Source: Armatimonadota bacterium (lineage in GTDB: Bacteria > Armatimonadota > UBA5829 > DTJY01). From it: a DNA stretch of 63,846 bases. The notes under the pieces were generated by a model. The model ran no database searches, was not told the origin of the DNA, and saw nothing but the letters and a program-made list of their open reading frames with translations. The translations under genes were made by a program, and so were the position numbers. The stretch covers positions 1-63,846 of the forward strand of contig JANYKG010000010.1 in NCBI GenBank assembly GCA_025358205.1, in the 5' to 3' direction. Shown here one piece after another: positions 36,321 through 47,667 of the stretch (position 1 is its first letter; each line of letters opens with the position of its first letter).

Positions 36321-37301
36321 ATGAAGCGCGCGCAAACAGCTATTCTCGTCGTTGCCCTGGCTCTTGTTTTGTCCCTTACAGGGATATCCGCACAAGAGCA
36401 GACACCTACACCACCGCCTCAGCCCGCATCGTCCGTGTTGACGACTGCTGCGGCTCCAGCAACTTTGGATGCATCCGAGAATTACCAGATTCAGTCAGAA
36501 GATGTGCTGAGGATATCGGTAATCGGAGAGCCAGAGTTGACCACAGAGCAGGCTGTTGACCCAAAAGGGTATGTGAACATACCGCTGATGGGTGTTCTAC
36601 ATGTTCAGGGGCTTACCAGGCAAGAGTTGATTGACCAGATTTCCTTGAGTTTGAGCAAGTACCTTGTTGAGCCAAAAATTCAGGTATCACTCACTCAGTT
36701 CAGACGCCCGAAGGTTTATGTGCTGGGCATGGTGTATAGGCCGGGCGTGGTTGAGTTTCGTCAAGGCGACACTGTGATGGAGGCTATTGCGCAGAGCGGC
36801 AGCTTTCAACAAGAGGCTTTCCTTGAGGGCGCCACTCTCACGCATAAGGGATCAGACAACCAGATTGCTCTGAATCTCTACAAGCTTTTCATCCAGAATG
36901 ATCTCTCTCAGAACCTGGCGCTGCAGGACGGGGATACCATATATGTCCCAGAGAACGTGACAAACAAGTTCTTCGTGCTTGGTGAGGTCATGAGGCCCGG
37001 GAAGTTCACACTGAAGGACAAGATGTCAATAATAGATGCCATATCTGCGGCCAGCGGCGTTACGCCGCGGGCCAATCAGAATACAGCATATATTATACGA
37101 GGAGATCCCAAAAAACCGGAGAGAATCAAAGTAGACATTGGGAAGTTCCTGAAGACCGCCGATATGTCGCAAAACGTCTTGTTGATGGCGGGTGATGTGG
37201 TATACATACCGGAGACTAACAAGCCTGATTGGAGCAAGATATCAGGTGTACTGTCTGCTATTGTGAATACGAGCTATCTGGCGCGTATCTGGGGTTTCTA
37301 G
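36321..37301 (+). CDS. Polysaccharide export protein (Wza-like, SLBB domains)
   Basis: A 326-residue secreted protein of the outer-membrane polysaccharide exporter family. A signal peptide (about 1-25, ending ISA) and a Pro/Thr-rich linker precede the Poly_export domain at about 52-130 (YQIQSEDVLRISVIGEPELT, DPKGYVNIPLMG). Two SLBB domains follow, with KVYVLGMVYRPGVVEFRQGD near 135 and KFFVLGEVMRPGKFTLKDKM near 215. It should form the periplasmic and outer-membrane channel for the exopolysaccharide. There is no lipobox, unlike E. coli Wza. It is the first gene of the operon, 21 bases before the copolymerase gene. Confidence 0.9.
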   Translation: MKRAQTAILVVALALVLSLTGISAQEQTPTPPPQPASSVLTTAAAPATLDASENYQIQSEDVLRISVIGEPELTTEQAVDPKGYVNIPLMGVLHVQGLTRQELIDQISLSLSKYLVEPKIQVSLTQFRRPKVYVLGMVYRPGVVEFRQGDTVMEAIAQSGSFQQEAFLEGATLTHKGSDNQIALNLYKLFIQNDLSQNLALQDGDTIYVPENVTNKFFVLGEVMRPGKFTLKDKMSIIDAISAASGVTPRANQNTAYIIRGDPKKPERIKVDIGKFLKTADMSQNVLLMAGDVVYIPETNKPDWSKISGVLSAIVNTSYLARIWGF

Positions 37302-37322: not shown

Positions 37323-39467
37323 ATGGAACTTTGGCAATTTTACAGGATACTACGTAGACGAAAATGGCTGATCATCATAGGCACCATCATATGCGTCGCC
37401 ATCGTCGGCATTATCAATGGTACCAGGGTGAAGAAGTATGAGGCCTCTACTACCATCATGGAGAAACTTTCCAATGATGACAAGGTCAACATCTACAATC
37501 CCGCTTATGCGTTCCAGACCGATCCTCGTGTACGCCTAGCAAACCTGGCGCAGTTGGTTAGCAGCGATACTGTTAAGCGACGATCGGAGTCTACACTCAG
37601 CCAGCTTTCCCTTGCGACTGATCCTGCTGCCATTGATGGCATTCTTCAAGACATGGATGTCAGCCCCAAGCTGGATACAACGATGCTCCAGATCAGGGTT
37701 GTATCAGAAAACCAGTTGCTAGCTAAGACAGTCGCGGATGTGGTGTCGAAGGAGTTCATTGCATACTACAATGAGTTGAACTACGGTGGCGCGGCGAAGG
37801 CAAAGCAGTTCATTGAGGGAGAGCTTCCGAAGGCCGCGAAGCGCTTGAAGCAGATACGCTTGGAATTGCGGTCGTTCAAGCAAGCGAACGGCGTAGTTAT
37901 GCTTGATCAGCAGACGAATATGCTGCTGCAGGAGATGACACAGAATAACATAGCTCTGGCTCAGTATCAGGTGCAGATGAATCAGGCTGGTGCGCGTATG
38001 CAAGGGCTTGAACAGAAGTTGAAGGACTTCCCAGAGACTAGAATGGTTTCCAAGGTGATATCTGCCAACCCCAATTGGCAAAGTCTGCAAGCAGAGCTTG
38101 GGAAACAACAGATGGAATTGCAGAAGATGCTCCGCGGCCGTACAGAGGAGCACCCGGAAGTAAAGGCTCTGCGCCGCCAGGTAGAGGAGACTCAGCGTCA
38201 GCTCAAGGACACGGCTACAACCATCTTTAACAGCGAGAGTCAGGCCAGCAACCCGATTCGCGACACTGTAACTCAGCAGTATGTGCAGGCTCTGGTGGAC
38301 TATGCAGCCGGACGCGCGGCTGTGGCATCTTCAAGCGCAACCGTTAATCAGATACAACCCAAATTGGATACGCTGCCAGAGAAAGAGATGCGTTTGGCGC
38401 AGTTGACGCTGGACGAAGAGAGCGCCAAAAATACCTATCAGCTTCTTCAGCAGAAGCTGGATGAGGCAGCTATCAAAGAGAAAGAAGCGGAGAACTCCAA
38501 CACTATTCAGGTGGTTGATCCTGCCACGTCGAAAGAGGCGGACTCCAGGGCTGGCTTGAAGCTGATTCTGGCCATTCTTCTTGCCCCGATTTTCTGTTCG
38601 GGTGTAGCGTTTCTCTTGAATTATCTCGACAACAGTGTGAAGACACCGAATGAAGTCGAGCGTTTGTTGGAACTCCCTGTTTTCGCGGTGGTGCCACTCG
38701 CAGGTTCTCACATTCTGTTGGATAAAAAGAGTCTTCCCGCAGTAGACAGTTCCTACCAAATGCTCTCAACAAACCTTTGGTTTGGCAACAGCGAGATGAT
38801 TGGCCACACGGTACTGTTTGCCAGTGCTGAACCGGATTGTGGTCGGTCGGTTACCGCAGCCAACCTAGCCATAACGCTGGCGAAGGACGGCGCAAGGGTG
38901 ATTATTGTGGATAGTGATATGAGGCAGCCGTCTCAGCATACTATCTTCAAGGTAGACAATTCGGCAGGCCTCAGCAACGTCCTGGCGGGGCAATTGCCAC
39001 TAAAGGACGCATTGAAGCCAACCACACAGACCGATCTACTTTTGCTGCCTTCAGGTCCGCTACCAACAAATCCGGTCAGGCTGCTCCGATCACCTGAGAT
39101 GCAAAAGTTCGTATCTGAAATTAACGAGCTGGCCGACTATGTTGTTTTCGACAGTCCGGCTGGTATCACTTTTGCCGATGCCACTTTGCTGGCTGCGCTT
39201 GTTAAGAATGTGGTCATTGTCTACGCGGCTGGTACAGTACCCAGAGGGGCTGATGCCGAATTCCGCACCAGGTTGGAGCAGGTGGATGCAAATGTCCTTG
39301 GCGTGGTGCTGAACATGGTGAGTCCGGAGGACAGCCATGGATTCCACCACTTCAGAGTTGGCTACGAAGAACTGATGAAGGATAGCAAGGGTTCCATTGC
39401 AACTGCTGATAGAATGCTTCATGGCATTAATGATGATCAGGCCGAGAAGACCAAGAAGGACTCATAG
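37323..39467 (+). CDS. Polysaccharide copolymerase fused to BY-kinase-like domain (altered Walker A)
   Basis: A 714-residue Wzc/GumC-type protein. A Wzz domain with a first membrane helix (about 15-35) is followed by a long periplasmic coiled coil (about 170-400) and a second helix (LKLILAILLAPIFCSGVAFL, about 413-432). The cytoplasmic CpsD-like ATPase domain follows. Walker A reads EPDCGRSVT at 503-511, with Arg508 where the family has the catalytic lysine. Walker A' (VDSDMR, Asp530/Asp532) and Walker B (VVFDSPAG, Asp610) are kept. The C-terminal tail has no tyrosine cluster, so tyrosine autokinase activity is doubtful. It should still control chain length and export together with the upstream Wza-like protein. 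Confidence 0.9.
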   Translation: MELWQFYRILRRRKWLIIIGTIICVAIVGIINGTRVKKYEASTTIMEKLSNDDKVNIYNPAYAFQTDPRVRLANLAQLVSSDTVKRRSESTLSQLSLATDPAAIDGILQDMDVSPKLDTTMLQIRVVSENQLLAKTVADVVSKEFIAYYNELNYGGAAKAKQFIEGELPKAAKRLKQIRLELRSFKQANGVVMLDQQTNMLLQEMTQNNIALAQYQVQMNQAGARMQGLEQKLKDFPETRMVSKVISANPNWQSLQAELGKQQMELQKMLRGRTEEHPEVKALRRQVEETQRQLKDTATTIFNSESQASNPIRDTVTQQYVQALVDYAAGRAAVASSSATVNQIQPKLDTLPEKEMRLAQLTLDEESAKNTYQLLQQKLDEAAIKEKEAENSNTIQVVDPATSKEADSRAGLKLILAILLAPIFCSGVAFLLNYLDNSVKTPNEVERLLELPVFAVVPLAGSHILLDKKSLPAVDSSYQMLSTNLWFGNSEMIGHTVLFASAEPDCGRSVTAANLAITLAKDGARVIIVDSDMRQPSQHTIFKVDNSAGLSNVLAGQLPLKDALKPTTQTDLLLLPSGPLPTNPVRLLRSPEMQKFVSEINELADYVVFDSPAGITFADATLLAALVKNVVIVYAAGTVPRGADAEFRTRLEQVDANVLGVVLNMVSPEDSHGFHHFRVGYEELMKDSKGSIATADRMLHGINDDQAEKTKKDS

Positions 39468-39479
39468 GCAATTTGCAGT

Positions 39480-40187
39480 ATGTTCGCTAGTCTTGATGCG
39501 CCACAACCGTCCTTTGAGCAGAATGAGGCAGATGTCGTGGATGGGGGCGGAAAACGCGTCTATCCGGTAGAACCTCATCTTACGTCAGCGCAACTGTTGC
39601 TTAAGAGGTCATTTGATATTCTAGTTTGTCTCGTGTTGTTTCCACTCGCTTTCGTGCTGGGACTGCTGATTGCGTTGGCAATCAAACTGGATTCAGCCGG
39701 TCCGATACTGTACAAACAGGGGCGTATTGGGAAGCACGGCAAGCCCTTCACCATGTACAAGTTTCGCTCTATGCGGAAAGACGCTGAAGAACTCCGCAAG
39801 ACACTGTCGGAGATGAATGAGGCGGCTGGACCGATCTTCAAGATCAAAAACGATCCCCGGATCACACGGGTCGGCGCCATTCTGCGGAAGACGAGCATGG
39901 ATGAGCTGCCGCAGATTCTGAACGTGTTGAAAGGCAATATGAGTCTTGTTGGGCCGCGTCCGCCGTTACCGGATGAGGTTGAGCAGTACAATGATTACCA
40001 GTTCGGCAGGCTGGCCGTGACTCCCGGTATTACATGCATCTGGCAGGTTGAAGGACGAAGCAACATAGGCTTCGACAAGTGGGTCGAACTGGACCTCGAG
40101 TACATACGCAGACAGTCGTTCTGGCTGGATCTGGTATTGCTACTGAGGACGGTTCGGGCGGTTATCAAGGGAACCGGAGCCTGCTGA
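39480..40187 (+). CDS. Undecaprenyl-phosphate sugar-1-phosphate transferase (priming enzyme)
   Basis: A 235-residue bacterial sugar transferase (PF02397). A single membrane segment (FDILVCLVLFPLAFVLGLLI, about 42-61) is followed by the catalytic domain with GPILYKQGRIGKHGKPFTMY, KFRSMRKDAE, KTSMDELPQILNVLKGNMSL and VGPRPPLPDE. It transfers a sugar-1-phosphate to undecaprenyl phosphate and so starts assembly of the repeat unit. It lacks the multi-span N-terminal part of WbaP/WcaJ proteins and is nearer the short PglC-like form. The sugar cannot be told. It begins 12 bases after the copolymerase gene. Confidence 0.92.
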   Translation: MFASLDAPQPSFEQNEADVVDGGGKRVYPVEPHLTSAQLLLKRSFDILVCLVLFPLAFVLGLLIALAIKLDSAGPILYKQGRIGKHGKPFTMYKFRSMRKDAEELRKTLSEMNEAAGPIFKIKNDPRITRVGAILRKTSMDELPQILNVLKGNMSLVGPRPPLPDEVEQYNDYQFGRLAVTPGITCIWQVEGRSNIGFDKWVELDLEYIRRQSFWLDLVLLLRTVRAVIKGTGAC

Positions 40188-40248: not shown

Positions 40249-41163
40249 ATGCAGACTATAGCAAAAACAACTGACCAAGGTGATGCCGGAAACGGTGGTA
40301 CGGTGCGGTATTTGCGGGATCTGCGTCCGGCGGAGATCGTGTCCATGCTGGTCGCGTTTGGGGTCATGCTGTGGGTGTATACACCGGTCTTCGTGAGTTG
40401 GTGGGGGCAGTGGATGAAGAAGGACAGTGAGTATTCGCATGCTCCGCTGATCCCATTCATCTCTATCTTCTTAATCTGGCTGCTTTGGAAACAGCTACTT
40501 GATGCCCCGGTGAAACCTTCCGCGTCGGGATGGTTTTTCATAGTGCCGAGCCTTGTGGTGATGTTGGTCATGTCATGGGCAGGCGCGACCAATCCGCAAG
40601 GGCTTTTCTTCCCTGTGCTGATCTGGGGCATGGTGATTGTTATGCTTGGAAGAGCGGTGGCAAAAATTATTAGCTTTCCAATCGCGTACCTCTATTTTAT
40701 GTGTACTGTGCCTGGGGATATTCTAACCAAGATAACGTTTCCGATAAGGATGATCTCCACAGTGGGCGCTACCACTATTCTGAATCTTTTCGGATATCAG
40801 GCTGACAGAATAGGCACGGAGATATCACTTCCAAATATAGTGGTGAACGTAGCGTCGGCATGCAGTGGGTTCAAGACACTGATAGCGATGTTAGCCTTAG
40901 CGGTATTGTTCGCATACTTGATAGAGGCTCCTTTGTGGCGCAGAGGGCTACTAGTGGCCATCATGATGCCTATGACAATAGTGCTTAACTCATTGCGGAT
41001 CACGGCGGTGGCTTTGGTAGGCAACTACTGGGGTGCGGAAGCAATGATGTATTTCCATGACTATTTCTCCGGTCTGTTGATGATCGCTGCGTCTATACTT
41101 ATCCTCTTTCTCTTGGCGAGGCTCTTCAAATGTCTAAGATTCAACTCAACGCTGTTGCCGTAA
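40249..41163 (+). CDS. Exosortase
   Basis: A 304-residue multi-span membrane protein of the exosortase family, the predicted transpeptidase for PEP-CTERM proteins. The N-terminal region has the typical WGQWMKKDSEYSHAPLIPFI. The proposed catalytic residues are all present: Cys205 in ASACSGFKTL, Arg250 in LNSLRITAVALV and His270 in MYFHDYFSGLL. About eight hydrophobic segments can be counted. Its position after the priming transferase matches the known exosortase-exopolysaccharide neighbourhood. EpsI is encoded separately and overlaps its 3' end by 34 bases. The presumed substrate is the PEP-CTERM protein at 34889-35773 and others outside the window. Confidence 0.93.
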   Translation: MQTIAKTTDQGDAGNGGTVRYLRDLRPAEIVSMLVAFGVMLWVYTPVFVSWWGQWMKKDSEYSHAPLIPFISIFLIWLLWKQLLDAPVKPSASGWFFIVPSLVVMLVMSWAGATNPQGLFFPVLIWGMVIVMLGRAVAKIISFPIAYLYFMCTVPGDILTKITFPIRMISTVGATTILNLFGYQADRIGTEISLPNIVVNVASACSGFKTLIAMLALAVLFAYLIEAPLWRRGLLVAIMMPMTIVLNSLRITAVALVGNYWGAEAMMYFHDYFSGLLMIAASILILFLLARLFKCLRFNSTLLP

Positions 41164-41783
41164 CACTGCTGTTGCTGGCAGTCTTAATAGGCAACAGGTC
41201 ACGTGAAATTACCTTAACGCCAGTTCCGCAGAGCCACTTCGAGAATATCCCCCTGAAATTTGGCGAGTGGATTGGTCGTGATAGTCAGTTTGATGAGAGC
41301 ACTCGTCAGCAGCTTCCCTCGGCGAGTCTGCTGTACCGTTTTTATGAGCGAAAGACTGATATAGTTCCATCAGGCATGGCCATTGTATATGCAACCGATC
41401 TGGGTGATTTTCACCAGCCGGAGGTCTGTCTCGAAGGGCAAGGCCTGAAGACCGTATCAAAAGGCATTGCCCGGATAAAGGATGGTAAGGGTGGTACGTT
41501 CGATGCGGTCACACTTGTCACCGAGGCGGATTACCAGCGCCGCGTGTTCCTCTTCTGGTTTTACTCGAACGGTGAGGCGTCCACGTCGCTAGGGTCATAC
41601 AAAATTCGCATTCTGAAAGACAGGCTGATGGGCAAGGTTGTGCGCAGGTCCGCCATGATCCGCCTGGATACACCTGTGCTGGACGGGGAAGAAGAGGCGA
41701 TTGGTCGCCTCGTGCAGCTTGCCAACGATTCTGTACCCTATCTAAGGGCGCAGTTCGATGAGGAAGCGGTGGTGACGAAGTAG
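41130..41783 (+). CDS. epsI: EpsI family exosortase-associated protein (DUF3485)
   Basis: A 217-residue EpsI-type protein. An N-terminal hydrophobic anchor (VAVTLLLLAVLIGN) is followed by a periplasmic domain with FGEWIGRDSQ and the signature FHQPEVCLEGQG, whose cysteine is residue 100. In many exosortases EpsI is fused to the C terminus; here it is a separate gene that overlaps the exosortase gene by 34 bases in another frame. Its role is unproven, but it always travels with exosortase and is thought to act with it at the inner membrane. The next gene starts directly at the stop codon. Confidence 0.9.
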   Translation: MSKIQLNAVAVTLLLLAVLIGNRSREITLTPVPQSHFENIPLKFGEWIGRDSQFDESTRQQLPSASLLYRFYERKTDIVPSGMAIVYATDLGDFHQPEVCLEGQGLKTVSKGIARIKDGKGGTFDAVTLVTEADYQRRVFLFWFYSNGEASTSLGSYKIRILKDRLMGKVVRRSAMIRLDTPVLDGEEEAIGRLVQLANDSVPYLRAQFDEEAVVTK

Positions 41784-42455
41784 ATGCAGACCCCTGCACA
41801 GGTGAAGCTGGTTGATACCGTGGCGAAACACGTGCTTGAGTCTGTCAAGGGCAAGGCTCGGTTGCTGAACATGGGAGCCGGTAGAAGCACGGTACTGGAG
41901 AGTCTCATAGCGAAGTATGGCTGCGATTTTACCAGCGACCGACTGGACGTGGATGACTGTTCTGCCGATCATCCCAATGTCGGCGAGTGCTTTGTCTGTT
42001 CAGCAGAACATATGAAGCCGCTAAAATCCGATGTCTACGATCTTATCTATTCCAACTATGTACTGGAACACATCGAGAATCTGGATGCAGCCGCCCAAGA
42101 GATTCATCGTATTCTCAAGCCCGGTGGACTTTGTGTTTGCAGCATTCCGAATCCCAAAGCGCCGGAATTTGCCATAGCCCGTCACACGCCGCTCTGGTTT
42201 CACAGGTTGATACGCGGGGGCAGCGGATGGCACACTCACTATGCATACACTAGTGTGAAGGCTTTGGGCGAAAGGTTCTCACGCGCGGGTATGGAGCCGG
42301 TCGAAATATCCTTCTACCCATGCGTGGAGCAGTACTTCGAGCGTTTCATCCTGCTGCGATGGCTGGGCGCGCTCTATGATTGCCTGGTCCGCATCTTTCA
42401 TATCAAGGGGATGATGGGCAACATCTGTTTAGTGACGAAGAAATCCGCAACATAG
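41784..42455 (+). CDS. Class I SAM-dependent methyltransferase (Methyltransf_11 type)
   Basis: A 223-residue methyltransferase. Motif I is weak, ARLLNMGAGRSTVLESL near residue 30. The post-I acidic segment SDRLDVDDC follows, then LIYSNYVLEHIENLDAAAQE and RILKPGGLCVCSIPNPK near 90-120, typical of Methyltransf_11. The likely substrate is a sugar or lipid-linked intermediate of the exopolysaccharide, based only on position. Its ATG directly follows the epsI stop, so expression is coupled. Confidence 0.8.
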   Translation: MQTPAQVKLVDTVAKHVLESVKGKARLLNMGAGRSTVLESLIAKYGCDFTSDRLDVDDCSADHPNVGECFVCSAEHMKPLKSDVYDLIYSNYVLEHIENLDAAAQEIHRILKPGGLCVCSIPNPKAPEFAIARHTPLWFHRLIRGGSGWHTHYAYTSVKALGERFSRAGMEPVEISFYPCVEQYFERFILLRWLGALYDCLVRIFHIKGMMGNICLVTKKSAT

Positions 42456-42521
42456 CGGGGAAGTACACCACCAACCAAACGTACGAACACATATATGGAT
42501 GTCTGCATACTGGAGATATAA

Positions 42522-43466
42522 ATGGAAGGAATCCTTGTAGCTACATACCGATGCAACGCTCGATGCCACATGTGCAACACCTGGCAGTTTCCTACCACTC
42601 CTGAGCAGGAGATGGATCCCAAATACTACGAGAAATTTCCCCAACTCGATTTCCTGAACATTACCGGAGGCGAGCCGTTCCTTCGCGAGGAGTTAGAAGA
42701 CATCGTTCGCATCGTGAAGCCCAAGGCAAAGCGCATCTGCATCAGCACCAATGGGTACTACACAGACCGAGTGGTGGCCCTTGCCAAGAAGTTCAACGGA
42801 GAACTGGGCTTTCGCATCAGTCTGGAGGGTCTGCCTGCCGCGAACGACGAACTGCGCGGACTGAAGGACGGCTTCGATCACGGGCTCCGCACGCTGCTGC
42901 AGCTCAAGCGCATGGGTCTGAATGACATTGGCTTCGGCATTACAATATCGGATAGAAACTCAGCCGATGTGCTGGAACTATACGAGTTAGCGAAGCATCT
43001 GGAAGTGGAGTTCGCCACAGCCGTGGTGCATAATGCCTACTATTTTCACAAGATGGACAACGAGATCACCAAGAAGGATGAGGTCTCGGAGAACGTGCGA
43101 ACTCTTATCCGCGAGCTATTCAAGAGCAAACGGCCCAAGGAGTGGTTCCGAGCGTATTTCAACTACGGCATCATCAACTACGTGAATGGCGGCAAACGGC
43201 TGCTGCCGTGCAAGATGGGTGAAAACATGTTCCTCTGCGAGCCGTGGGGCGACATCAAAGCCTGCAACGTGCTGGACGAGAGCATGGGGAATATCAAGGA
43301 AACAGATTTCAAGACCATTTGGAACAGCGAGCAGGCCAAGGAAGTGCGAAAACATGCGCGCTGCTGCGGACACGAGTGCTGGATGATCGGTAGTGTGGCC
43401 CCAGAGATCAAGAAGCGCAAGCTCGAAATCGGTAAGTGGATACTGAAGAACAAGGCGAACTACTAA
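42522..43466 (+). CDS. Radical SAM/SPASM-domain enzyme
   Basis: A 314-residue radical SAM protein. The [4Fe-4S]-SAM motif is CNARCHMC, at residues 11-18, and NITGGEPFLREELEDIVRI follows as the GGE motif. A SPASM-like C-terminal region holds further cysteines: LPCKMGENMFLCEPWGD, KACNV and CCGHECWMIG, enough for at least one auxiliary cluster. Such enzymes modify peptides or sugars, or activate other proteins. Here it may act on a sugar of the exopolysaccharide or on a surface protein, but the substrate is unknown. A 66-base gap precedes it; the following flippase gene is also on the plus strand. Confidence 0.88.
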   Translation: MEGILVATYRCNARCHMCNTWQFPTTPEQEMDPKYYEKFPQLDFLNITGGEPFLREELEDIVRIVKPKAKRICISTNGYYTDRVVALAKKFNGELGFRISLEGLPAANDELRGLKDGFDHGLRTLLQLKRMGLNDIGFGITISDRNSADVLELYELAKHLEVEFATAVVHNAYYFHKMDNEITKKDEVSENVRTLIRELFKSKRPKEWFRAYFNYGIINYVNGGKRLLPCKMGENMFLCEPWGDIKACNVLDESMGNIKETDFKTIWNSEQAKEVRKHARCCGHECWMIGSVAPEIKKRKLEIGKWILKNKANY

Positions 43467-43500: not shown

Positions 43501-44985
43501 ATGCTAGATCAGGTTCGGAAATTAGTCAAACATTCGGCGGTATACGGGTTGGGGCTTGTTGGCAGCAGCATCACAAACTTGGTGTTGACGCCGATCTTTC
43601 TCCATCGCCTCAGCAAGCCTGAATACGGCATGATTGAGGTGCTGAATGTGTTCAGCTCCATGATATTGTTCATCTCCACACTCGGCATCGCGTCGGTTCT
43701 CATGAAAATCTACCTCAATGATTGCGAGACCGATGATGACCGGAAGACTCTCATCAGTTCAGTGGTAGTCTTTTCCATCTTTGTCGCCATACTGTTGTCC
43801 GTTGCCACATTCTTGTTTTCCCGCTCGTTGTCAAAGCTATTCTTCGCTGATACGCGTTATGGATTGTTGTTGCAGTGGGGTGTAGCCGGGTCTGGCTTGA
43901 TGCTAATCCAGCAAATGACGGTGTTATGCCTACGAGCAAAACAGATGCCGGCCAAATTTGTTGTAGTTACTCTCTCTCAGCTCGGAGTGATTGTGGCGGC
44001 AAATCTTTACCTCATCTGGTACAAAGGGATGGGAGTGCTTGGCATACAGATCGCCTCTGTTATGGGCGCTGCGGTCTCGCTGTTGATCGGTTTATGGATG
44101 ATACGGTCTGACATTGTGTCCAGATTCTCTACTGGAATGATTAAATATGTCCTTGCTATGTCGCTTCCTCTCATCCCGGTTTCCATTGTCCCGTGGATAT
44201 TGAACTGGTCTGACCGTTTTTTTCTCAACCATTATTGCGGATTGGACCAGACCGGGCTTTACGCAGTCGGCTACAAGATCGGCATGTTGGGTATCGTGTT
44301 GCCCGTGAACGCTTTCCAGCTTGCGTGGAGTCCACTGTTCTTCTCGAATAGTGGCAACGAAGACTCTCCCAGGTTTTGCGCCAAAGTGTTGAAATACTAT
44401 GTGTTCGCGCTCGTGTCCTCCGGTCTCATATTGTCCATCTTCTCGAAGGAGATCATTCACATAATCTCGAACGAGGAATACTGGTCGGCATCGGCTCTTA
44501 TCCCATACATATGCGTAGCTTATATATTCTATGGAGTTCAGTTCTTTGCAGTGCCGATTTTTATCAATGCAAACAAGGGAAAGTGGCTCGCCATGATGAT
44601 GATTGCAGTGGCGGTAGTGAACTTGACGCTGAATTACATTCTTATTCCAAAGCTAGGTATATGGGGCGCCGTGGACTCAACATTGGTGACTTTCTTCTTG
44701 GAAGCGGCGCTTGGCATGGGACTAGCAAGTCGCCTGCTTGCAGTTCCATATGAGCATTGGGCTTTTGTGAAAATTGTGGTTGCGGCAGGAATAGTCTACG
44801 GTGGTTTCATTTTGATTCCAGGGCTGTCGGGCGGAATGGCTGCGTTGAAGCTGCTGTCGGCGCCGATATTTCTCGGGCTGCTATTTGCCATGAGATTCTT
44901 CGGCGAAAAGGAATTGGCGTTGATCGGTAGTATCTCAGGGAGCGCAATCAGACGTGTGAATCCACGATACAGAAAGGCCGCATAA
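43501..44985 (+). CDS. Oligosaccharide flippase (Wzx/MurJ-like MATE-fold)
   Basis: A 494-residue membrane protein with about 14 hydrophobic segments. It belongs to the polysaccharide biosynthesis protein family (PF01943/PF13440): SAVYGLGLVGSSITNLVLTP, LSKPEYGMIEVLNVFSSM and later LNWSDRFFLNHYCGLDQTGL, all typical. It should flip the undecaprenyl-linked repeat unit across the inner membrane in a Wzx/Wzy pathway. Its stop codon overlaps the start of the next methyltransferase (TAATG). Confidence 0.9.
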   Translation: MLDQVRKLVKHSAVYGLGLVGSSITNLVLTPIFLHRLSKPEYGMIEVLNVFSSMILFISTLGIASVLMKIYLNDCETDDDRKTLISSVVVFSIFVAILLSVATFLFSRSLSKLFFADTRYGLLLQWGVAGSGLMLIQQMTVLCLRAKQMPAKFVVVTLSQLGVIVAANLYLIWYKGMGVLGIQIASVMGAAVSLLIGLWMIRSDIVSRFSTGMIKYVLAMSLPLIPVSIVPWILNWSDRFFLNHYCGLDQTGLYAVGYKIGMLGIVLPVNAFQLAWSPLFFSNSGNEDSPRFCAKVLKYYVFALVSSGLILSIFSKEIIHIISNEEYWSASALIPYICVAYIFYGVQFFAVPIFINANKGKWLAMMMIAVAVVNLTLNYILIPKLGIWGAVDSTLVTFFLEAALGMGLASRLLAVPYEHWAFVKIVVAAGIVYGGFILIPGLSGGMAALKLLSAPIFLGLLFAMRFFGEKELALIGSISGSAIRRVNPRYRKAA

Positions 44986-45887
44986 TGATTGATGGAAAGG
45001 ATACCATCTTGACACCCGTTCTGGGCGCTACATACAAAGAAGCTTTGGAGAATATGCTCTCTCACGTTGAAGATGAGTATGATGAGATAGAGACGGTTCT
45101 CTCTCAGGACGAGGTGGCGACTTATCGGGCTTACTATGTAGATATGCCGATACGGAACCTGCCGCCGCAACTCAGGCGTAGTGCCTACCGCAGGTACTAC
45201 CGTGGTTACCTGCGCTATATCGTCAACGAGCTTCTTGCATGGCAGGGGGACCCGCCCAGCGTTCTGGATGCAGGATCAGGTCTGGGTACGCAGTCCATCC
45301 TCTTCGGCCTGCTTGGGGCAAAGGTTCAAGGCGTTGATCTCAGACAGGACAGGGTGATAATATCTGAGAAGCGCGCGGCCCGTTGGCGCGAGAAGCTGAA
45401 TGCTAGAATAGATGTTCAGTTCACATGCGAGAGTCTTTTCAATATGCCGCAAGAGGAGAAGTATGATTTCATCTGGATATGCCAGGCCATCTCACATATA
45501 GATCCGGCTGAAGACTTCATTGATCTTGCGTACAAGCTGCTGAAACCCGGTGGGCAGGTGGTGGTGTATGATCCAAATGGCATGTATCTACCAAATCAGC
45601 TTTTTCAGCTTAAAAACCGTGGTACGCAGATACACAGGAGCTATACCACCCATAAGGGTGAGACAGTAAAGTACGCAGTGGAAAGACTATTCACTTTCGG
45701 CGGAATCCAGCGACTGTTGAAAAAGAGTGGTTTCAGTATAGCCCACGCGGAATGTCAGTTCCACCGATTCAGGGGCAAGACTGATGACGCCGTCTTCGAG
45801 CGATTCGTCCGCCCGCTGGACTTCCTTCCATTGTGGACATCGCTTATCGGATATGAGTTCGTTGTGTCGGGCAAGAAGCCGACATGA
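44985..45887 (+). CDS. Class I SAM-dependent methyltransferase
   Basis: A 300-residue methyltransferase. An N-terminal helical extension (about 1-85) precedes a SAM-binding domain with SVLDAGSGLGTQSILFGLLG near residue 90 and VQGVDLRQDRVIISEKRA after it. YDFIWICQAISHIDPAEDF and LLKPGGQVVVYDPNG follow near 155-200. The substrate is unknown; the operon suggests a sugar of the repeat unit. It overlaps the flippase gene by one base. The frame of the next gene is open inside its 3' end, but that gene probably starts after its stop. Confidence 0.82.
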   Translation: MIDGKDTILTPVLGATYKEALENMLSHVEDEYDEIETVLSQDEVATYRAYYVDMPIRNLPPQLRRSAYRRYYRGYLRYIVNELLAWQGDPPSVLDAGSGLGTQSILFGLLGAKVQGVDLRQDRVIISEKRAARWREKLNARIDVQFTCESLFNMPQEEKYDFIWICQAISHIDPAEDFIDLAYKLLKPGGQVVVYDPNGMYLPNQLFQLKNRGTQIHRSYTTHKGETVKYAVERLFTFGGIQRLLKKSGFSIAHAECQFHRFRGKTDDAVFERFVRPLDFLPLWTSLIGYEFVVSGKKPT

Positions 45888-45909
45888 CACTTTGCACGGA
45901 CACAGGGAC

Positions 45910-47667
45910 ATGCTAGATAAGACTACATATAAAAAAGCAAAAAGGAATACAGCCAACCGCATGAGCGGGATGCTGTCAGCGTTTGGTCGAGGTGTGGCTA
46001 ACCTGCGACTAGTGCGGTGGCTTTCCGCCCTTCGGCCTGTGCGGGTGATATTAGGCGTCATTCTGCTAATACATGCCGTGGTTTCTAAATATGTCTGGTG
46101 GCCTGCAAAGACGGCTTTCCGCCGTACACGGAAGTACATGGGGCGCAAGGAGATATGGATATACGGGCTGGTTTGGATATTCTGTGCCTGTACCGGTCTT
46201 ACCATCGCATTGGCCGGGCAAACCATTCCTTATGTGTTTCTCAGTCTGCTGTTAGGGATTGTGATGCTCGTAGCGTACGTACTTATCTGCTTCCGCTCAC
46301 CGTTCACAGGCCTGATTCTGTGGCTGCTTACCTCTCCGGTCTTGAAGGCCTTATTCAGCTTCAAGTTCATAGAGGGGCTGCCTGTGTTGACCGGAGACGG
46401 CGTCGCCCTATTGATCTTACTCACGGTTTATTTGTTTGACATGAAGCGTGACACCGGCGGACAACCGACGAAAATGCTGCATTTCTGCATGGGTTTGTTT
46501 ATCATCGGTGAGCTGTTATCCGTAATTAACACAGAGTTCCCTAAGAAATCGGCGCAGATGGTAATTGACCAGTATTTCTTCCCAATCCTTATCTATCTCT
46601 TTGCACGCAGATGGGTGACGAACAAGAAAGCCCTTAACGTGGCCCTTGTAGCCATAATGGTTGTGGGAGCGTACTTTGTTGTTTTAGCTATTCCAGAGCA
46701 TTTCACTGGCCGAAATATCTTCAGTGTCACCGGACATGCAGCGTACATAGAGGGTGAGTTGGGAGTAGCGAGAGCACAGGGGCCTGCCGCCGATCCGCAG
46801 GAGTTTGGTCTGGTACTTACCCTTGCTGCAGCGTTAGGAATAGTCCAATCTGTCTATGCCAAGCTCCGCCGGACGCGACTTCTTTCGCTGCTGGTAGTGG
46901 CAATGTCTTTTGTGGGTATAGCGTACACTCTGCGGCGTTCCGTGTACGTGGCCGTGGTCGTGGCTATGGTCACCATGCTGGCAGCATCATCCCCTGTTCG
47001 GCGACGGGTCGCAACCATCATGATATTGATTGCCCTTGGTTTGGGCATCGGCTGGCAGAGTCTTGTTGAATCAAAAGTGTATTCCGGACGTCTCGCTACT
47101 ACCGACCCAGTATTGCAGAGGATTGCTGTCCAGGCGACAGCTCTGAACATTGTGAAGCATCATCCGTGGTTCGGGACGGGGTTTGACAGCTACCGCGAAG
47201 GGAATCGCAAGTATCTGGTGGGGTACAAGGACATAATGCCGTCGTATGGCGCTGGTTTTGGGTCACCTCACAGCGGCTATCTACGCATTCTGGTGGACGG
47301 TGGGCTTGCGGCTTTCCTGCCGTTCTGCATGATGATACTCATGGTTCTGTACGTTTCATATCGGGCGTTCAAGCAGGCGCGGGGTCCTGGACTCGGAGGC
47401 AGAGACGCTTTCTACGCGTTCTGGGCTTTCTCGTTTGGTGTTCTGGTGCAGGCCAGTTCCACGGACTCGTTCTTCTACGATAAGTATCTAATCGCTTTAT
47501 GGATGTTCGCGTTTGGCGCGCTGATTGGCGCTCACCTGCGGCGACCTGATGCCGTGGAGTCCGAGGAAACTCCGGATGTGCAACTCCCTGCCAAGCGCAA
47601 GGGCAGTCTTGCAAAAGCGCTGGCAATGTCTCACTCACTTGCAACCCCATCAGACCGAAAGGCATGA
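45910..47667 (+). CDS. O-antigen ligase/polymerase family protein (Wzy-like)
   Basis: A 585-residue membrane protein with 11-12 hydrophobic segments. The Wzy_C domain signature is near residues 410-460: HHPWFGTGFDSYREGNRKY and FGSPHSGYLRILVDGG, the large loop with conserved His and Arg. It should polymerise repeat units in the periplasm or ligate them to an acceptor. The reading frame is open upstream to 45784, overlapping the methyltransferase gene, but those residues are not membrane-protein-like. The ATG at 45910, after the previous stop, is preferred although its ribosome site is weak. It overlaps the acetyltransferase gene by four bases. Confidence 0.85.
   Translation: MLDKTTYKKAKRNTANRMSGMLSAFGRGVANLRLVRWLSALRPVRVILGVILLIHAVVSKYVWWPAKTAFRRTRKYMGRKEIWIYGLVWIFCACTGLTIALAGQTIPYVFLSLLLGIVMLVAYVLICFRSPFTGLILWLLTSPVLKALFSFKFIEGLPVLTGDGVALLILLTVYLFDMKRDTGGQPTKMLHFCMGLFIIGELLSVINTEFPKKSAQMVIDQYFFPILIYLFARRWVTNKKALNVALVAIMVVGAYFVVLAIPEHFTGRNIFSVTGHAAYIEGELGVARAQGPAADPQEFGLVLTLAAALGIVQSVYAKLRRTRLLSLLVVAMSFVGIAYTLRRSVYVAVVVAMVTMLAASSPVRRRVATIMILIALGLGIGWQSLVESKVYSGRLATTDPVLQRIAVQATALNIVKHHPWFGTGFDSYREGNRKYLVGYKDIMPSYGAGFGSPHSGYLRILVDGGLAAFLPFCMMILMVLYVSYRAFKQARGPGLGGRDAFYAFWAFSFGVLVQASSTDSFFYDKYLIALWMFAFGALIGAHLRRPDAVESEETPDVQLPAKRKGSLAKALAMSHSLATPSDRKA

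Follow-up and report, generated by a model that had tools for sequence, protein, structure and literature searches.

The closest described systems are the BY-kinases Wzc, CapAB and BceF, together with a set of BY-kinase-like proteins in which catalytic residues are missing. Wzc is modelled as a ring that alternates between two states, an octamer when dephosphorylated and monomers when phosphorylated, and the Lys-less K540M form of Wzc is described as unphosphorylated, octameric and bound to ADP-Mg (PMC8285477). The EX2RX2R motif is reported to make up half of the octamer interface and to be essential both for trans-autophosphorylation and for polysaccharide synthesis (PMC3795738). BY-pseudokinases have already been described: EcpK of Myxococcus xanthus, HfsB of Caulobacter and fused forms named after an earlier review (PMC12004946). 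Here we describe a co-polymerase from an Armatimonadota bacterium in whose BY-kinase domain the Walker A Lys is replaced by Arg, and we consider what has become of its activity.

A co-polymerase/BY-kinase fusion in an exosortase locus

The window, i.e. the whole stretch of 63,846 nucleotides that was analysed (contig JANYKG010000010.1), carries a polysaccharide locus with the following genes:

36321..37301, + strand: outer-membrane polysaccharide export protein, Wza/EpsE-like (Poly_export and SLBB domains; TIGR03027 below cut-off)
37323..39467, + strand: co-polymerase/BY-kinase fusion of 714 aa, from the translation (TIGR03007 over residues 3-460, TIGR01007 over residues 478-671)
39480..40187, + strand: polyprenyl glycosylphosphotransferase, the initiating sugar transferase (TIGR03025 at 300 bits, above cut-off; PF02397)
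40249..41163, + strand: exosortase (TIGR02602 at 146 bits, above cut-off; PF09721)
41130..41783, + strand: EpsI-type exosortase partner (TIGR02914 above cut-off; PF11984)
43501..44985, + strand: Wzx-type flippase (PF01943, PF13440)
45784..47667, + strand: Wzy/O-antigen ligase-type polymerase (PF04932)

A methyltransferase and a radical SAM/SPASM protein also lie within this locus (41784-43466). The translation of 37323-39467 (+ strand) contains FASAEPDCGRSVTAANLAITLAKDGARVIIVDSDMRQP, and the stretches of the fusion protein that matter for what follows are these:

38748..38768, + strand: EX2RX2R position, residues 476-482, reading SSYQMLS without a basic residue (alignment)
38829..38855, + strand: variant Walker A EPDCGRSVT, residues 503-511 (translation)
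38844..38846, + strand: codon 508, CGG = Arg, at the Walker A Lys position (Arg in 48 of 115 aligned domains)
38910..38924, + strand: Walker A' DSDMR, residues 530-534, intact (D530, D532 and R534 in 48/48 Arg-type domains)
39069..39092, + strand: NPVRLLRS, residues 583-590, with 586 and 589 basic (mostly acidic in the Lys type)
39150..39164, + strand: Walker B DSPAG, residues 610-614, intact (D610 in 48/48 Arg-type domains)
39336..39464, + strand: C-terminal tail with a single Tyr, Y681, and no Tyr cluster (start modelled as helical, low confidence)

In profile searches the kinase domain matches TIGR01007 at 142.4 bits, above the cut-off of 108.05, a match that is no proof of an active tyrosine kinase. 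The co-polymerase model TIGR03007 matches residues 3-460 at 125.1 bits (cut-off 278.85), and the model for the XrtA-associated tyrosine autokinase, TIGR03018, matches the protein at 110 bits (cut-off 230.65); both are exosortase-system models, and both matches fall below the curated cut-offs. PF02706 and PF13807 were matched below their gathering scores, and the NCBIfam model 'KGGVGR-motif variant AAA ATPase' matches the domain weakly (37.3 bits, cut-off 90). The layout is that of a PCP-2a protein, with the Wzz-type region and the cytoplasmic domain in one chain, and the nearest orthologue aligns over residues 1-690. CapAB, Wzc and BceF are the best PDB relatives of the kinase domain. Its AlphaFold2 model (mean pLDDT 88.4) superimposes on CapA1B1 with ADP-Mg at Z 35.5 and rmsd 1.5 over 224 residues, on CapAB chains at Z 34.2-35.5, and on the best Wzc, CapAB and BceF chains at Z 30.5-35.5. 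The start of the tail is a helix in the AlphaFold2 model (39336-39464; pLDDT about 65), which recalls the helical C-terminus of EcpK and not the unstructured tail of Wzc.

Of the features that mark an active BY-kinase, the fusion protein thus has the homology and fold and the Asp residues of Walker A' and Walker B, and it is without the Walker A Lys, the EX2RX2R motif and the C-terminal Tyr cluster; a BY-kinase fold with catalytic residues missing, encoded in a polysaccharide locus, is what characterizes a BY-pseudokinase in the sense of EcpK and HfsB. The fold is shared with Wzc, CapAB and BceF, the layout of co-polymerase plus kinase domain with Wzc, and Walker A' and B are intact; unlike these three, the window protein has Arg for the Walker A Lys, has lost EX2RX2R and keeps one tail Tyr. 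EcpK and HfsB are alike in that a BY-kinase-like domain serves the co-polymerase without catalytic residues, but they are stand-alone proteins, whereas the window domain is fused, and EcpK has no Walker motif and no tail Tyr, whereas the window protein keeps the nucleotide-site residues except Lys (PMC12004946). In PslE (PDB 9v6l, 9v75), too, the co-polymerase chain leads on to a P-loop that has no Lys and is printed as GEGVT in the alignment, but that alignment has no Walker A' DxD, and PslE matches a 416-aa part of the window protein at 58 bits; a literature search for a paper on the PslE structure found none. CapB1 of S. aureus is a BY-kinase for which no activity was detected and which has been considered a pseudokinase (PMC3795738); it keeps GKS and EX2RX2R (alignment with the chimera 4jlv), and the window protein is without both. 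The BY-pseudokinase as a kind is accordingly known, and what the sequences of the Arg branch described below present is a variant with the nucleotide site kept. Searches of open-licence papers, made in part by title, turned up none that treats this branch of the Armatimonadota, the conservation of its nucleotide site or its link with exosortases.

Arg508 in the Armatimonadota

The preliminary description of this DNA had placed Arg at residue 508 (CGG, 38844-38846) and had held Walker A' (DSDMR) and Walker B (DSPAG) to be kept, and the translation bears out all three, with DSDMR at 38910-38924 and DSPAG at 39150-39164; the interval noted, 38832-38855, corresponds to residues 504-511 (PDCGRSVT), the E of EPDCGRSVT being encoded at 38829-38831.

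For comparison, 291 genomes of the phylum were searched and the best 3 candidates per genome scored. From 120 further places listed, 4 of them already in the set, 80 of the other 116 were taken, mostly top-ranked. This gave 116 kinase-domain frames, from which one MinD-like frame (L021) was dropped, leaving 115 aligned domains. Residue 508 is Arg in 48, Lys in 43, Gly or Ala in 21, and Ser, Thr and Asn in one each, numbers that reflect the sampling and should not be read as frequencies. Groups are defined by residue 508: features given as 48/48 describe Arg-type domains, and the Ser-type domain L059, which lies on the same branch, differs at several of them. Within the family of the window's genome, which here equals the order and comprises five genomes, the orthologues in G002, G003 and G004 (59, 47 and 47% identity) read GRS, and the best match in G001 (30% identity) is of the Gly type. 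The alignment with relatives that had been proposed as a check thus found GRS or GRT conserved. All six Arg codons are used at position 508 (CGC 20, CGA 12, AGA 5, CGT 5, CGG 4 and AGG 2; n = 48), which indicates that the amino acid itself is kept.

Trees were built with 28 of the 48 Arg rows after thinning; every row removed shares at least 78% identity with one that stayed. All 28 Arg rows group together on a single branch (SH-aLRT 100), which also takes in one Ser row, L059. The support of this branch was 99/99.9 after masking, in 76 of 78 rows, of Walker A and of an approximate EX2RX2R stretch set at a fixed distance before the P-loop. In a wider search, Walker A was readable in 78 of the best 80 of 448 relatives listed. 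Among these best 80, all 12 of L177-L188 have Arg; ten of the 12 are titled Armatimonadetes, Armatimonadota or Fimbriimonadales (L184 belongs to the last) and two 'bacterium', and several are contigs already in the Armatimonadota set. Also among the best 80 of the 448 listed, Lys stands in 66/66 readable domains of L189-L256, titled as other phyla or 'bacterium', a count that leaves aside L195, where the aligned stretch begins past the motif, and L210. Single-protein searches of genome-contig and viral-contig collections returned no matches. Because many related bacteria carry the same Arg, Arg508 is, on this comparative evidence, a long-kept trait and no sequencing error.

Losses and conservation in the Arg type

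In none of the 48 Arg-type domains is either Arg position of EX2RX2R basic. Among the 43 Lys-type domains, E476 is present in 43, R479 in 37 and R482 in 40, with both positions basic in 37. The median number of tail Tyr is 3 in the Arg group (range 0-5, with the truncated tail of L047 entered as 0), 4 in the Gly/Ala group and 10 in the Lys group (range 1-14). The earlier statement that the tail has no Tyr cluster therefore describes the window protein well, with Y681 as the only Tyr after residue 664, but does not carry over to its Arg-type relatives, of which most retain 2-4 Tyr. Y681 itself is Tyr in 47/48, the remaining domain being truncated at that point. Two positions have changed in charge: residue 586 is Arg or Lys in 48/48 of the Arg group and acidic in 40/43 of the Lys group, and residue 589 is Arg in 45/48 and acidic in 27/43, respectively. 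Perhaps the basic residues at 586 and 589 belong to a rebuilt subunit interface; the AlphaFold2 model covers one chain.

The nucleotide site has stayed. G507, S/T509, N514, D530, D532, R534, D610 and N664 are kept in 48/48 Arg-type domains. The domain dN/dS is 0.007-0.148 in the Arg group (NG86, 11 chosen, partly overlapping pairs), i.e. purifying selection, and 0.024-0.274 in the Lys group where computed (NG86). The estimates come from 11 Arg, 11 Gly/Ala and 8 Lys pairs, partly overlapping, with dS above 1 in several and uncomputable in some outside the Arg group. A ligand-free domain would be expected to drift at nucleotide-site residues, and their strict conservation favours retained nucleotide binding over a purely structural relic.

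A second Lys-less lineage

The Gly/Ala-type domains, which include L013, L014, L015, L063, L070, L078, L084, L096, L107 and L110, cluster on one branch, joined there by a single Thr row (support 98), and read [KR]PxQG[GA]T. Residue 503, which we take to be the place of the signature Lys in deviant Walker A proteins, is Lys or Arg in 21/21 domains of this lineage, in 1/43 of the Lys group and in 0/48 of the Arg group, as well as in 2 of the 66 Lys-type domains of L189-L256 among the best 80 of 448 relatives listed. Both EX2RX2R positions are basic in 18/21 Gly/Ala-lineage domains. To judge by these residues, the lineage may represent a kinase with a relocated catalytic charge, comparable in this respect with the WNK kinases.

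Single domains deviate further. Inside the Arg branch, L059 (3998-6064) sits on a long branch and adjoins an exosortase match; it has Ser where the Lys would be, a Lys at the signature position, and D532 replaced by Asn. Among the Lys types, L109 (3794-6121), also on a long branch and adjoining an exosortase match, has Asn at the Walker A Lys, probably a further Lys loss.

Exosortase linkage and genome content

An exosortase match lies within 4 kb in 29/32 Arg loci versus 1/32 Lys loci, counted where at least 3 kb were available downstream, with the window's own locus outside the 32; the corresponding counts are 1/17 for the Gly/Ala types, 1/1 for the Asn type and 1/1 for the Ser type. The sequences behind these counts share descent, and the exosortases were sought by phmmer with the window's own exosortase, a query that may miss distant ones. 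With short flanks included, 4/60 Lys types have an exosortase nearby (L122, L157, L161 and L163), and these Lys-type kinases beside exosortases weaken the idea that exosortase linkage was the cause of the Lys loss. The tree places one of them, L122 of family f2, together with both Lys-less lineages.

The preliminary description had also proposed a check for another BY-kinase in the genome, and none was found above the TIGR01007 cut-off, the next match being a 300-aa frame at 36 bits. PF01451 (LMW tyrosine phosphatase) and PF19567 (CpsB/CapC) have no match in the window's genome, which is 97% complete. A second co-polymerase-like match in this genome, L002 (G000:C19:13735-14550), covers query residues 148-421 only and comes without a kinase-domain match. 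Across the class, TIGR01007 domains above cut-off number 59 and come from 28 genomes; L153 was unreadable in the scoring of the Lys position. The Arg type occurs in 21/28 genomes, and 12 of these 21 also carry a Lys type. The other nine (G000, G003, G004, G228, G231-G234 and G244), with assemblies 95-100% complete, have no Lys-type BY-kinase above the TIGR01007 cut-off, so that an active BY-kinase seems to be dispensable for the Arg type in these 9/21. Four of the 21 (G000, G233, G234 and G244) have neither a Lys type nor a PF01451 phosphatase; PF19567 was sought in the window's genome only. A tyrosine-phosphorylation cycle usually has three parts, and in some genomes the searches turned up not one of them, with PF19567 covered for the window's genome.

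Possible functions of the Arg-type domain

The reading that we prefer, at a probability of about 0.6, is that the Arg-type domain binds nucleotide, does not phosphorylate, and scaffolds or switches the co-polymerase. In this reading the fusion protein serves as co-polymerase in a polysaccharide pathway of the Wzx/Wzy type whose genes lie together with that of an exosortase. The cytoplasmic domain keeps the fold of a BY-kinase and most likely still binds Mg-nucleotide, but tyrosine autophosphorylation would have been given up, since Arg stands for the catalytic Lys, the contact through EX2RX2R is lost and few Tyr are left in the tail. Nucleotide occupancy or exchange, and not tail phosphorylation, would then probably set the assembly state of the co-polymerase. 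That nucleotide might be bound without Tyr transfer is proposed from the properties of Wzc K540M, and the Arg type would amount to a natural K540M with a further loss, that of the EX2RX2R contact. The kinase domain has, in short, probably stopped being a kinase; we infer that kinase activity was lost, that nucleotide binding was kept and that the domain acts as a switch. The preliminary description had suggested a pseudokinase that either has a structural role or is regulated in some other way. This is the reading with the best support, given the branch-wide Arg and the loss of EX2RX2R and reduction of the Tyr tail, two features that serve trans-autophosphorylation, whereas a purely structural relic is disfavoured by the strictly kept nucleotide site.

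Several observations count against a nucleotide-binding, non-phosphorylating domain. In canonical systems the EX2RX2R contact is reported to be essential for polysaccharide synthesis (PMC3795738), so a ring without EX2RX2R must cohere by other means, and cycling of Wzc phosphorylation is reported as essential in E. coli (PMC8285477). Phosphorylation of the Arg type is possible, given Y681 in 47/48 domains and the 2-4 Tyr in most tails. L059, a member of the branch, is without an intact site (Ser; Asn for the Walker A' Asp), and Lys-type BY-kinases also adjoin exosortases in 4/60 cases.

The domain might instead be a pure scaffold that binds no nucleotide and works through protein contacts only, as proposed for EcpK and HfsB. 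EcpK, a BY-pseudokinase without Walker motifs, binds the co-polymerase and is important for exopolysaccharide synthesis (PMC12004946), and PslE has the P-loop GEGVT with no Walker A' DxD in the printed alignment. A pure scaffold, however, need not keep eight nucleotide-site residues, which are kept here in 48/48 domains, and the motifs are gone in EcpK; we regard this explanation as unlikely. Somewhat more improbable is an enzyme that still phosphorylates Tyr or some other substrate, Arg508 standing in for the Lys. The positive charge is preserved by Arg, which is retained through all six codons, the remaining residues of the site do not vary, 47/48 domains have Y681, and the existence of the NCBIfam 'KGGVGR-motif variant AAA ATPase' model, albeit a weak match, indicates that the superfamily has known cases of Arg at this position. 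Yet EX2RX2R, reported as essential for trans-autophosphorylation (PMC3795738), is lost in 48/48, the tail has fewer Tyr, phosphorylation of Wzc is reportedly abolished by mutation of K540 (PMC8285477), and no PF01451 or PF19567 phosphatase that could reverse the reaction was found in the window's genome.

That the domain acts in trans by modulating an active BY-kinase of the same cell is very unlikely, even though 12/21 Arg-type genomes of the class also encode a Lys-type BY-kinase and a role of this kind was proposed for the inactive CapB1 (PMC3795738): 9/21, the window's genome among them, have no Lys type above the TIGR01007 cut-off in assemblies that are 95-100% complete. A decaying pseudogene or a sequencing error has a negligible chance. 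The assembly is a draft in 200 contigs, but a change from AAG or AAA to CGG takes two or three substitutions and dN/dS is low in relatives; an error at codon 508, which the preliminary description had named as what would overturn its claim, is ruled out by the same Arg in orthologues from 3/4 other genomes of the family and, in all, in 47 other aligned domains.

Beyond the nucleotide-binding, non-phosphorylating domain that we prefer, a wider proposal can be put forward tentatively, at odds that we set below even: the Armatimonadota would possess a phosphorylation-free class of co-polymerases, linked to exosortases and switched by nucleotide occupancy, in which Lys gave way to Arg once and for good, the nucleotide site hardly changed and the interface was rebuilt through the loss of EX2RX2R and the turn of residues 586 and 589 from acidic to basic, alongside a second, Gly/Ala lineage with relocated charge. 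The Arg branch offers natural Lys-less domains with a nucleotide site, which would separate nucleotide binding from phosphorylation and bear on how a Wzc-type cycle controls polymer synthesis. As the Walker motifs lost in EcpK are retained in this branch, a switch that works by nucleotide alone is directly testable in it.
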